In this document: one piece after another, positions 266-43,557 of the stretch
How the letters are laid out: each line of letters begins with the position of its first letter
How positions within the stretch are numbered: the first letter of the stretch is position 1
Source: Methylobacter sp.
GTDB taxonomy: Bacteria > Pseudomonadota > Gammaproteobacteria > Methylococcales > Methylomonadaceae
NCBI GenBank assembly: GCA_028712225.1
Contig: JAQTQN010000003.1
Span: 1-59,415 of the forward strand
Reading direction: 5' to 3'
Length of the DNA: 59,415 nt
Program-made: the position numbers and the translations under genes
The notes under the pieces: model-generated
What the model was told of the DNA's origin: nothing
What the model saw: only the letters and a program-made list of their open reading frames with translations
Databases searched by the model: none

Positions 266-645
266 TGGTGGAGGCGGCGGGGATTGAACCCGCGTCCGTA
301 AGTACTCCGCTGTAAGGTCTACATGCTTATCCCACACTTTTGATTTAGCCGATAACTACCCGTTGGGCCAAGAAAATTATCAGCGATTCCGTAAGGTTTT
401 AGGGCATCCGCTCCGGACAGGCTTCAGCACGATCTTATGTAATATGACCTCTGAGCGTCCAGCGAACCGAACTCCACCCGCATAAGCACAGATGGTCAAA
501 GGAATGGGAGCTGTGTTTAAGCAGCTAACGCCATTGAGTAGTTTTCGTCATTTGCGAATACTTTTTTTCTGTAGGATTTACGAGGTGTACAGTCCTCGGC
601 ATGCACTTAAAGTTTCGCTACCCACGTCGAAGCCATGTCGCCCCC
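266..645 (-). ncRNA. ssrA: Transfer-messenger RNA (tmRNA)
   Basis: 5' GGGGGCGACATGGCTTCGACGTGGG and 3' CGGACGCGGGTTCAATCCCCGCCGCCTCCACCA on the minus strand; 7-bp acceptor stem GGGGGCG/CGCCTCC; tag ORF at 517-555 encodes ANDENYSMALAA-stop. Confidence 0.96.
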
Positions 646-40661: not shown

Positions 40662-41114
40662 TTTTCTACTCCCACTAACAATGACTGTGAATGAAGCAAT
40701 GCTTTAGCTAATTGGCATGACCTTGTATCCCATCCCCAGAGAAGCGAAGATTCTCGACAATTAGCGTTAAGCTCTAGCGTGAAAACTGAGCGTAAAGCAA
40801 TCGGCTGAACATGATCTGAATGGATGATTTTTGCTGACCGGCAATAGGCTTTAGTGCATCGTGCGGTTATCTCGGCAGTTAAATTAAACTGTGTTATTTA
40901 ACGTAATAAAAAGGACATATCACTCGATTTTTAAAAAATTAGTGCTGATTTTTCAGGCATTTAATAAGAGAGGTTGTTTTTCAAGTCATTGTAAATAATG
41001 CAATTATTGTTTTTTATAAGTTGTTGGCGCGAATCGTGCTTTTCTCTGCGTAGACAAGTTGGGAACAAGTATCAATGTTCCCTTGCCTCAGGAAAGAGTT
41101 AGTTGCCAGGGAGT

Positions 41115-41253
41115 AGAGCTCAGGCTCTTAAGCCACACCCGTCGCGAGGCGGGCTCGGAAAGCCACGGGTCTTGATCCTAACAAGACAGCCGGGCCGCCC
41201 TCTCAGTATTGGGGGGCTATGAGTGCATTCTTAAAATCAAGAATGCACTTAAT
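41115..41253 (+). promoter_or_regulatory. Structured 5' UTR, c-di-GMP-I (GEMM)-like riboswitch candidate, copy 1
   Basis: CCCGTC-GCGA-GGCGGG hairpin then GGAAAGCCACGGGTCTT...AAGACAGCCGGGCCGCC, resembling GEMM AAAGCC-ACGGGUCU...GCCGGGUUGCC; downstream hairpin AGTGCATTCTT/AAGAATGCACT. Confidence 0.55.
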
Positions 41254-41282
41254 CAACATAACAACAACTAGGAATGAAAACG

Positions 41283-42050
41283 ATGACTCAATTTAGAAAA
41301 TTGGCTATTGCAGGTGCGGTAACTGCATTGATGAGTGCAACTGCAGCGGAAGCACATGTGTCTTATAACACCAATACTTCATTAGCCAATGGTAATACAG
41401 GAACAGCCGCCAATTGGACCGGTGGATTACCAACTGGATATATCGGTCACTTGCCGGCAACCTGGATAGCAAACGTCCATAACGATGTTACCCCTAATGT
41501 GTCTTACGAAGTATCTAAAGCCGACGCTATAGCCGAGGGCGCACCTTCAACCTATAAAGTTGAGACATTAGCTAATAAATGGAACCCTGCACAAAGTTGG
41601 GGTAATGCACTTGATTTCGGTTTGATCGACTTGCATGCAGCCGGAGATTTATTGATTACAGTTGCGGCTGATGCGACTCAGGGCTCTGTTTTTACTCCGG
41701 GCTTTACTCTTTTTAGTGGCTGGGATACTTCTGCAACTAGCACTAAGCACGGTTCTTGGAACGTTGCGCTGCCAGCAGTTCCAGTTAATCCTAGAGGAAC
41801 AACCGGCTTAGCTTATTTGGGGCAAGCATCGACTACAGTAGCCGGTGGTGTTGCTTCGTATCTATTCACTGGTCTGGCAGCTGGTCATTACAGTTTGTGG
41901 ATTGGTGGTAATGGTACAGGCGGTACAGGTACAACTAACCAGAGTTATGTGGCCAACATTTCCGCTGTGCCTGTCCCAAGCGCAGTCTGGCTATTCGGCA
42001 GTGCGTTAGCAGGTGTTGTTGGTCTGCGTCGTCGCAAAATGGCTGCATAA
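41283..42050 (+). CDS. PEP-CTERM sorting-domain protein, copy 1
   Basis: Signal peptide and C-terminal 'VPVPSAVWLFGSALAGVVGLRRRKMAA'. Track start 41274; the paralogue lacks that ATG, supporting 41283. Confidence 0.92.
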   Translation: MTQFRKLAIAGAVTALMSATAAEAHVSYNTNTSLANGNTGTAANWTGGLPTGYIGHLPATWIANVHNDVTPNVSYEVSKADAIAEGAPSTYKVETLANKWNPAQSWGNALDFGLIDLHAAGDLLITVAADATQGSVFTPGFTLFSGWDTSATSTKHGSWNVALPAVPVNPRGTTGLAYLGQASTTVAGGVASYLFTGLAAGHYSLWIGGNGTGGTGTTNQSYVANISAVPVPSAVWLFGSALAGVVGLRRRKMAA

Positions 42051-42078
42051 CAGATCATAGAATTCATCTGTTAAACAG

Positions 42079-42117
42079 AAACCCGGTGCATCATTTCTTG
42101 ATGCACCGGGTTTTTTT
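42079..42117 (+). terminator. Rho-independent terminator
   Basis: AACCCGGTGCATCA-TTTCT-TGATGCACCGGGTTTTTTT. Confidence 0.9.
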
Positions 42118-42511
42118 ATTGTGAATAGAATTGAGCTGTCAATTGTTATTGATACGTTATGGTTAAAAATCAGCTATTTAATACCATGAACATTAAGTTT
42201 TTCGATAAGCAGGCTACTAATACCGCTTGAAATATATGAGTTCGCTCTTTAAGGAAGCATCTTAATTTAGCCCGACAATTAAATTAAACTATGTTATTTA
42301 ACGTAAAAAAATAAGCCATATCACACCCCCATTCAAAAAGTCAGTGTCGATTGCATAGGTAAGCCTGAATCACAAATCATTGTAAATTAATGATTTTATT
42401 TAAAAAATAAGCATTGGCACGAGTAGTGCTTTCCATTTGGCAGTTAGACAAGTTTGGCACAAACATTAATGCCCACTTGACCTCAGGAAGAGTTAGCTAT
42501 CAGGGAAATCC

Positions 42512-42650
42512 AAGAGCTTAAGCTCTTATGCCACCCCCGTCGTGAGGCGGGTTCGGAAAGCCACGGGTCTTGATCCTAACAAGGCAGCCGGGTTGTCCTC
42601 TCAATAATGGGGGGCTATGAGTGCATTTTTCAAACACAAGAATGCGCTTA
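42512..42650 (+). promoter_or_regulatory. Structured 5' UTR, c-di-GMP-I (GEMM)-like riboswitch candidate, copy 2
   Basis: CCCGTC-GTGA-GGCGGG then GGAAAGCCACGGGTCTTGATCCTAACAAGGCAGCCGGGTTGTCC; paired changes relative to copy 1 keep the stems. Confidence 0.55.
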
Positions 42651-42681
42651 ATCAACATAATAACTACTAGGAACTAAAACG

Positions 42682-43557
42682 ATGACTCAATTTAAAAAAT
42701 TGGCTATTGCAGGCGCGGTAACTGCATTGATGATGAGTGCAACTGCGGCAGAAGCTCATGTGTCTTACAATACCTTTACTACAACAGCCACATCTCAAAC
42801 TGACGGCTGGACACGTACTTTTGACGGCGCTGATGCAGACGCTATCGCTACTGGTCCGGAAAGCCAAGGCAACAAAGGTACTTTAGCGCCTTGGCTCGGC
42901 ACTTCAGGCGGTGCATTGCCTTTTGGTTACACAGGATCTTCACATTTGAACTGGGCAGCCGAAATTCACGCTGCAGGTGATTCATTGGAAGTTTCTGCCG
43001 CTGATTCCCTGGCCGATTATGGCGTTGCTGCTGAAATAGATACTGGTGCTGGCGCTTGGAAAGATACTAACGGTACCGGATGGAAACACCAAACTGACAT
43101 TGGTTTGATTAAATCTAATGTTACCCAAAATGTGACTATTAATCTCTCTACTTTAGGCATAGCAGGCACGCCTGCAGGGCTCCTCGTCAATAACAATTTT
43201 GGCGTGACCGTTTTTACTGGCATGGACACCAATACTGGAAATTACAGTCATCATGGTAGCTGGAATAATGCGACAAAACCTGAAACTAACAGTAACCCGT
43301 TTGGTACAGCTAACCTGACTTACCTGACTCACGACGCAACAGTTGATTCAGTTAACGGTTTAACATTCACTGCGTTAGCTGGTCAAATTTACTCCATTTA
43401 TCTGGGTGGCAACGGTGTTGGCACTTGGAGTCAAAACGTATCTGACTATAAATTAAACATTACTACTTCTCCTGTACCTGTTCCTGGTGCAGTTTGGTTA
43501 TTCGGTAGTGCGTTAGCGGGTTTTGTTGGTCTGCGTCGTCGCAAAATGGCTGCATAA
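42682..43557 (+). CDS. PEP-CTERM sorting-domain protein, copy 2
   Basis: Near-identical signal peptide and C-terminal 'VPVPGAVWLFGSALAGFVGLRRRKMAA'. Confidence 0.92.
   Translation: MTQFKKLAIAGAVTALMMSATAAEAHVSYNTFTTTATSQTDGWTRTFDGADADAIATGPESQGNKGTLAPWLGTSGGALPFGYTGSSHLNWAAEIHAAGDSLEVSAADSLADYGVAAEIDTGAGAWKDTNGTGWKHQTDIGLIKSNVTQNVTINLSTLGIAGTPAGLLVNNNFGVTVFTGMDTNTGNYSHHGSWNNATKPETNSNPFGTANLTYLTHDATVDSVNGLTFTALAGQIYSIYLGGNGVGTWSQNVSDYKLNITTSPVPVPGAVWLFGSALAGFVGLRRRKMAA

Follow-up and report, generated by a model that had tools for sequence, protein, structure and literature searches.

The window, the whole 59,415-nucleotide stretch of Methylobacter sp. contig JAQTQN010000003.1 that was analyzed, carries two neighboring genes whose products have a C-terminal PEP-CTERM sorting signal, each with a structured leader (41082-41283 and 42460-42682) on its 5' side. 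The features of the leaders and genes are listed in Table 1. The sorting signal follows the pattern VPxPxAxWLFGSxLxG..RRK, which identifies the proteins as PEP-CTERM proteins and agrees with the original prediction, made from the letters of the DNA, that the leaders precede matrix-type genes; the TIGR03370 model matches at 43474-43545 with 24.3 bits, slightly under its cut-off of 25.35. Enzymes of c-di-GMP signaling are encoded as had been predicted, the genome having 34 GGDEF matches, of which two lie in the window. The window also contains a tmRNA gene (266-645, minus strand).

Table 1. Features of the two leaders and their genes (window positions; aptamer nucleotides are numbered as in Vc2, by our own fit to the Rfam alignment)
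Feature	Position	Strand	Details
Sigma-54-type promoter, copy 1	41025-41039	+	TGGCGCGAATCGTGC, -24/-12; pattern match; putative start near 41051
5'-terminal hairpin, copy 1	41061-41082	+	GGGAACA/TGTTCCC; folds; stem of different sequence at the same place in relatives
Hairpin P0, copy 1	41115-41128	+	AGAGC-TCAG-GCTCT; directly 5' of the aptamer, where the P1 5' strand is expected; read from sequence
c-di-GMP-I aptamer, copy 1	41122-41202	+	G20 41132, C21-G46 41133/41158, A47 41159, C92 41198; RF01051 47.2 bits, R1 77.0 bits
Hairpin 1 (anti-aptamer), copy 1	41197-41217	+	GCCCTCT/GGGGGGC, takes nt 91-97; predicted fold
Hairpin 2, copy 1	41220-41251	+	TGAGTGCATTCTT/AAGAATGCACTTA; predicted fold
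Shine-Dalgarno, gene 1	41270-41274	+	AGGAA; read from sequence
PEP-CTERM gene 1	41283-42050	+	MTQFRKLAIAG...VPVPSAVWLFGSALAGVVGLRRRK; start set by comparison with copy 2
Sigma-54-type promoter, copy 2	42415-42429	+	TGGCACGAGTAGTGC; pattern match; putative start near 42441
Hairpin P0, copy 2	42512-42527	+	AAGAGC-TTAA-GCTCTT; read from sequence
c-di-GMP-I-type aptamer, copy 2	42520-42600	+	G20 42530, C21-G46 42531/42556, A47 42557, U92 42596; RF01051 44.3 bits, R1 70.4 bits
Hairpin 1, copy 2	42595-42615	+	GTCCTCT/GGGGGGC, U92 in a G-U pair; predicted fold
Hairpin 2, copy 2	42618-42650	+	TGAGTGCATTTTT/AAGAATGCGCTTA; predicted fold
Shine-Dalgarno, gene 2	42669-42673	+	AGGAA; read from sequence
PEP-CTERM gene 2	42682-43557	+	MTQFKKLAIAG...VPVPGAVWLFGSALAGFVGLRRRK; sorting signal

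The post-aptamer leader and signal peptide of copy 2 match those of a relative's first gene at 97 and 96%, compared with 35 and 39% for its second gene, whereas the promoter and mature protein match the second gene (68 and 56%) better than the first (49 and 39%). By these identities the copy 2 leader is a recombinant, in which the post-aptamer leader and signal peptide have been homogenized from a copy 1-type gene. Because of this homogenization the likeness between the copies provides no independent evidence of conservation, so that of the conserved leader originally described the structure is indeed present in both copies, but their mutual resemblance does not count toward its conservation.

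Aptamer class and the inverted core pair

Both leaders hold c-di-GMP-I (GEMM-I) aptamers with the C21-G46 pair, and each aptamer lies between a sigma-54-type promoter and a PEP-CTERM gene, PEP-CTERM proteins being surface proteins sorted by exosortase. In a cmscan search of Rfam 15 the RF01051 model (c-di-GMP-I, GEMM-I) matches both copies at full length, end to end, and above its gathering score of 35 bits. The second covariance model in Table 1, R1, was trained on 69 diverse relatives with copy 1 included and copy 2 left out. In the alignment of these relatives 17 of the 21 aptamer pairs show two-sided changes and 94% of cells are paired; two-sided cells number 224, compared with a mean of 64 after shuffling and no more than 42 with the pairing slid. 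The P1b and P2 stems that characterize c-di-GMP-I are thus supported by covariation, which places the leaders in this class. The GEMM-like character and c-di-GMP-I core proposed originally are borne out, with the GNRA hairpin (GCGA or GTGA loop), the GGAAAGCC core and the P2 stem all located where they had been placed, and the covariance search proposed at the time yielded an RF01051 match with covariation rather than no match.

RF01051 aptamers number 9 in the source genome and 128 in 61 genomes (the source and 60 relatives). The ligand nucleotides G20 and A47 are present in both window copies and in 125 and 127 of these 128 aptamers, respectively. Nucleotide 92, which pairs with the second guanine of the ligand, is a cytosine in copy 1; in copy 2 it is a uracil although the RF01051 model matches, so that c-di-GMP is only the probable ligand of copy 2. 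When compared with Vc2 (PDB ID 3IRW, RF01051), the two-hairpin fold, the GNRA loop, G20 and A47 are common to both copies and C92 to copy 1, and matrix or surface genes likewise lie downstream. The window copies differ from Vc2 in having C21-G46 instead of G21-C46, a P1 of less than 4 bp, the local hairpin P0 and, in copy 2, U92. The orphan Rfam variants c-di-GMP-I-GGC (RF03167) and c-di-GMP-I-UAU (RF03168) give higher raw scores than RF01051 (51.7 and 55.2 bits), but neither reaches its gathering score (59 and 65.9, respectively), and by our own reading of the model consensus GGC is marked by G at position 47 and UAU by U20 (with U92), in contrast to the A47 and G20 of the window. Both variants were rejected on these grounds, and membership of the leaders in either is extremely unlikely.

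The difference in the core, written CTCGGAAAGCC/TTCGGAAAGCC and called atypical in the original prediction, is real. The GGAAAGCC core of both copies has one base pair inverted, G21-C46 to C21-G46, giving GCC...CGGAAAG in place of the canonical GGC...GACGCAAAG. In the source genome and its relatives this pair is C-G in 111 of the 128 aptamers, G-C in 15 and another combination in 2, making C21-G46 the commoner form in Methylomonadaceae, and a pattern scan with one genome per species found it, among the matches listed, in Deltaproteobacteria-type lineages, Campylobacterota, Vibrio, Photobacterium, Nitrosospira and others. The 3',3'-cGAMP riboswitch of known structure has C15-G40 as the closing pair of P2, adjoining A14 (position 20) and A41 (position 47) (PMC6274999). 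This pair of the Geobacter GEMM-Ib RNA (PDB ID 4YAZ) is equivalent to C21-G46 of the window and lies beside the ligand (PMC6274999); positions 20 and 92 of the Geobacter RNA are A (A14) and C (C75), compared with G20 and C92 or U92 here. That the odd core signals a new ligand was rejected, the change being a compensatory pair swap that is found in 111 of 128 aptamers, in other lineages and in the cGAMP riboswitch itself. As a known and widespread subtype, C21-G46 is uninformative about a new ligand, and the atypical core does not point to one.

A P1 helix of 4 bp or more around the pocket is absent from both leaders, the best helix being 3 bp in copy 1 and 2 bp in copy 2, in line with the earlier remark that its 5' strand is not obvious; P1 lies outside the base pairs of the RF01051 Rfam model. 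Hairpin P0 sits directly 5' of G20 and is kept in relatives of the same leader. The starts of the transcripts (41051-41115 and 42441-42512) hold a stem-loop of differing sequence, also present in relatives, and after it a conserved CCTCAGGAAAGAGTTAGCTNNCAGGGA stretch. Elsewhere, four GEMM-I aptamers occur in a row within 345 bases of a Desulfosudis MAG (L182, 7168-7512); doublets and triplets have been reported for the c-di-GMP-I class in a tandem survey (PMC9481103).

Genes and promoters of the proposed riboswitch regulon

In Methylomonadaceae the c-di-GMP-I riboswitch mainly targets PEP-CTERM genes. A PEP-CTERM motif was found in 66 of the 83 complete genes that follow C21-G46 aptamers, a value that is a floor because the motif missed several obvious cases, and in none of the five that follow G21-C46 aptamers. 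Among 90 downstream proteins, NCBIfam models identified 49 as VPLPA-CTERM and 45 by the flocculation-associated PepA model. Sigma-54-type sites lie upstream of 25 of the 111 C21-G46 aptamers, both window copies included, compared with 1.9% of random 150-nt windows, and the source genome encodes the PrsR regulator (701.6 bits; cut-off 502.6). Sigma-54/PrsR control of PEP-CTERM genes was described by Haft et al. 2006 (PMC1569441) and has been shown for pepA of Aquincola (PMC9850573), with which the sites found before PEP-CTERM genes agree. The TGGC..../..TGC promoter and PrsR are common to that regulon and the source genome; the window differs in adding a riboswitch leader between promoter and gene, which extends the picture to a regulon that combines sigma-54 with a riboswitch for the biofilm-matrix PEP-CTERM proteins of relatives of methane-oxidizing bacteria.

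c-di-GMP riboswitches before PEP-CTERM genes are also known from Methylophaga nitratireducenticrescens GP59, where several have been described, each preceding a PEP-CTERM gene and three of them consecutive (PMC12530212). That organism belongs to another family than the source of the window, and the accessible text of that report does not describe pocket variants of its riboswitches (PMC12530212). Copy 1 is an ordinary riboswitch whose setting has been described before. Decayed aptamers that have lost the 3' half precede PEP-CTERM-like genes in other genomes (L304, 2706-2784; L305, 3-75), with a U92 aptamer nearby at the same locus.

Downstream hairpins and the proposed switch

The segment 3' of the aptamer, comprising hairpins 1 and 2, folds far better than shuffled sequences (z of -6.8 for copy 1 and -5.0 for copy 2), and the two hairpins had been recognized earlier, together with the copy 2 changes that keep their pairing as G-U wobbles. 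Exact matches of hairpin 2 in the genome are limited to the two copies, and its interpretation as a genome repeat was rejected. Hairpin 1, of 21 nt, starts at nucleotide 91 and uses the ligand-contacting nucleotides 91-93, so that it should compete with ligand binding; the expression platform suggested in the original prediction is plausible. Two related leaders that retain a post-aptamer identity of only 34-47% form a 9-11 bp hairpin with the same start, and the presence of a hairpin at this place in relatives with unrelated post-aptamer sequence provides independent support for hairpin 1.

We consider the leaders to be best explained, with a probability of about 0.75, as C21-G46 c-di-GMP-I riboswitches in which hairpin 1 competes with the ligand and copy 2 is retuned. 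Bound ligand would draw nucleotide 92 into pairing with the dinucleotide, so that hairpin 1 could not close fully, and without ligand hairpin 1 would form. Control is probably exerted on translation, with the gene probably ON when the signal is high, as suggested by the lack of a terminator and by sister leaders whose Shine-Dalgarno region is covered by hairpin 1 or by the flank of the aptamer. In many shorter sister leaders the 3' flank of the aptamer, CACCUUAUGU or CCUUAUGU, pairs with the Shine-Dalgarno region ACAUAAGG, and in others hairpin 1 itself covers the GGAG. For the window leaders an effect of hairpin 1 on the start site is proposed by analogy with these sister leaders, but the modeled Shine-Dalgarno accessibility of the two window leaders hardly differs between free and ligand-constrained folds. 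An AUG lies just after the hairpin 1 3' arm GGGGGGC, at 41219 in copy 1 and 42617 in copy 2. In copy 2 (42617-42670) and two relatives it opens an upstream reading frame of 17 codons whose stop is the UAG of the Shine-Dalgarno sequence; in copy 1 (41219-41296) the frame has 25 codons, a one-base change in loop length shifting it. Speculatively, this upstream frame could link hairpin 1 to the gene start.

The two stable hairpins 3' of the aptamer could instead act in transcription termination, intrinsic or Rho-dependent, but no U run follows hairpin 1 or hairpin 2 in either leader and the Shine-Dalgarno sequence of sister leaders lies inside the competing helix, making this platform improbable. 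It is less probable still that the leaders have kept their structure but lost the switch and only stabilize the mRNA of two homogenized paralogs; the missing P1, the unchanged predicted Shine-Dalgarno accessibility, the recombination between copies and the decayed aptamers at other PEP-CTERM genes would be compatible with such a loss, but both copies, like their orthologs, retain G20, A47 and the 21-46 pair.

For the preferred switch by hairpin 1 competition, the folding model gives a cost of freeing nucleotide 92 of 5.0 kcal/mol in copy 1 and 1.1 kcal/mol in copy 2, these being nearest-neighbor estimates of hairpin energy that leave out ligand and tertiary energy. U92 would thus weaken both the pairing with the ligand and the hairpin that competes with it, which may allow the switch to keep working with another set-point. 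Copy 2 (G20/A47/U92) would most likely still respond to c-di-GMP, with its affinity shifted.

Nucleotide 92 and the ligand of copy 2

The canonical C92 of copy 1 and the U92 of copy 2 form a difference in the ligand-pairing nucleotide that was absent from the original prediction. U92 occurs in 12 of the 128 aptamers of the unselected sample of relatives. In the window's ortholog group it is found in copy 2 and in the matching first genes of two sister genomes, with C92 in copy 1; among these orthologs U92 toggles with C92, and drift and retuning are indistinguishable there. A search of 237 Methylomonadaceae genomes, with the 3' flank as query and position 92 left free, returned 30 matches with 0-1 mismatch in six genera, all 30 carrying U92. 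The covariance model confirmed 27 of these as U92 aptamers; two of the other three have no match to it and one is partly aligned. Nearly all members of this group precede one type of PEP-CTERM gene (VPLPAAVWMFGAGLMGVLR..RRK), an ortholog group other than that of the window. Mere drift as the origin of U92 is ruled out for the conserved ortholog group by the invariance at a position that was left free. No RNA partner for U92 is evident in the leaders of this group, and ligand contact is therefore its likely role. On an aptamer tree built without nucleotide 92 the U/C label changes 10 times, compared with at least 18 in 200 shuffles, for a set that is partly selected; in the unselected sample the same test gives 8 changes, compared with a shuffled mean of 11.5. 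Copy 2 thereby points to a natural counterpart of C92U, a pocket mutation made in the laboratory, and this U92 subtype is kept in six genera within one ortholog group. No description of a natural conserved U92 subtype was found in the literature searched, a set that does not include the first survey of variants (Weinberg et al. 2017).

Copy 1, with G20, A47 and C92, should bind c-di-GMP in the canonical manner. The single pocket change of copy 2 is identical to that of engineered Vc2 C92U (PDB IDs 3MUR, 3UD3, and 3UD4), a laboratory mutant, in contrast to the natural U92 that is conserved in an ortholog group. According to a review, C92U enabled a class I riboswitch to bind 3',3'-cGAMP (PMC12032345), and together with the invariance of U92 in the 30 matches and its lack of an apparent RNA partner this would be consistent with 3',3'-cGAMP or a similar mixed dinucleotide as the ligand of the U92 aptamers, G20 holding the guanine and U92 pairing with the adenine. 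The ligand would then presumably, and just as doubtfully, lie in the orientation opposite to that in the known A20 cGAMP riboswitches; the A20 of those riboswitches is absent from the window, where both copies have G20. However, the Vc2 C92U mutant has been crystallized (3MUR, PMC10671752), G20/C92 mutants retain c-di-GMP binding although more weakly (PMC9049102), and close paralogs carry C92.

The genomes also bear on the supply of such a ligand. cGAMP-making GGDEF enzymes of the Hypr type are recognized by a GHxxG[S/T/C] change. No GGDEF of this type was found in a search of 11 genomes, of which the majority carry U92, nor among the motif-readable GGDEFs of the source genome, where of 32 domains read most match the motif, all of these with the canonical aspartate, and the rest are divergent or partial. 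SMODS synthases are present in only three of the 11 genomes, and no known cGAMP synthase signature tracks U92. This lack of a link to cGAMP synthases, together with the weakening by U92 of both sides of the competition, favors c-di-GMP with another set-point as the likely ligand setting of the U92 aptamers, a changed ligand being the unlikely option. In the same tentative sense, G20/A47/U92 might define a natural, conserved Methylomonadaceae subclass that senses a dinucleotide other than c-di-GMP, such as 3',3'-cGAMP bound in reverse orientation, in which case neighboring PEP-CTERM genes of one genome would answer two different cyclic dinucleotides. The variant or related-ligand riboswitch envisaged originally therefore stands as a member of the c-di-GMP-I class, but the core swap is no basis for a different ligand, and the ligand-relevant difference is U92 of copy 2. 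With the natural C92U form, it becomes possible to ask whether a single nucleotide sets how tightly a second-messenger riboswitch binds or swaps its ligand while the fold is untouched.

The A20, A47 and C92 signature of 3',3'-cGAMP riboswitches was observed in aptamers of two relatives (L081, G006:C30:2853-2927; L133, G056:C1:1548160-1548238). U92 aptamers of the Methylomonas-type genomes L330, L331, L337, L338, L344 and L346 have long inserted tips on the P2 arm, with matches of 124-148 nt.
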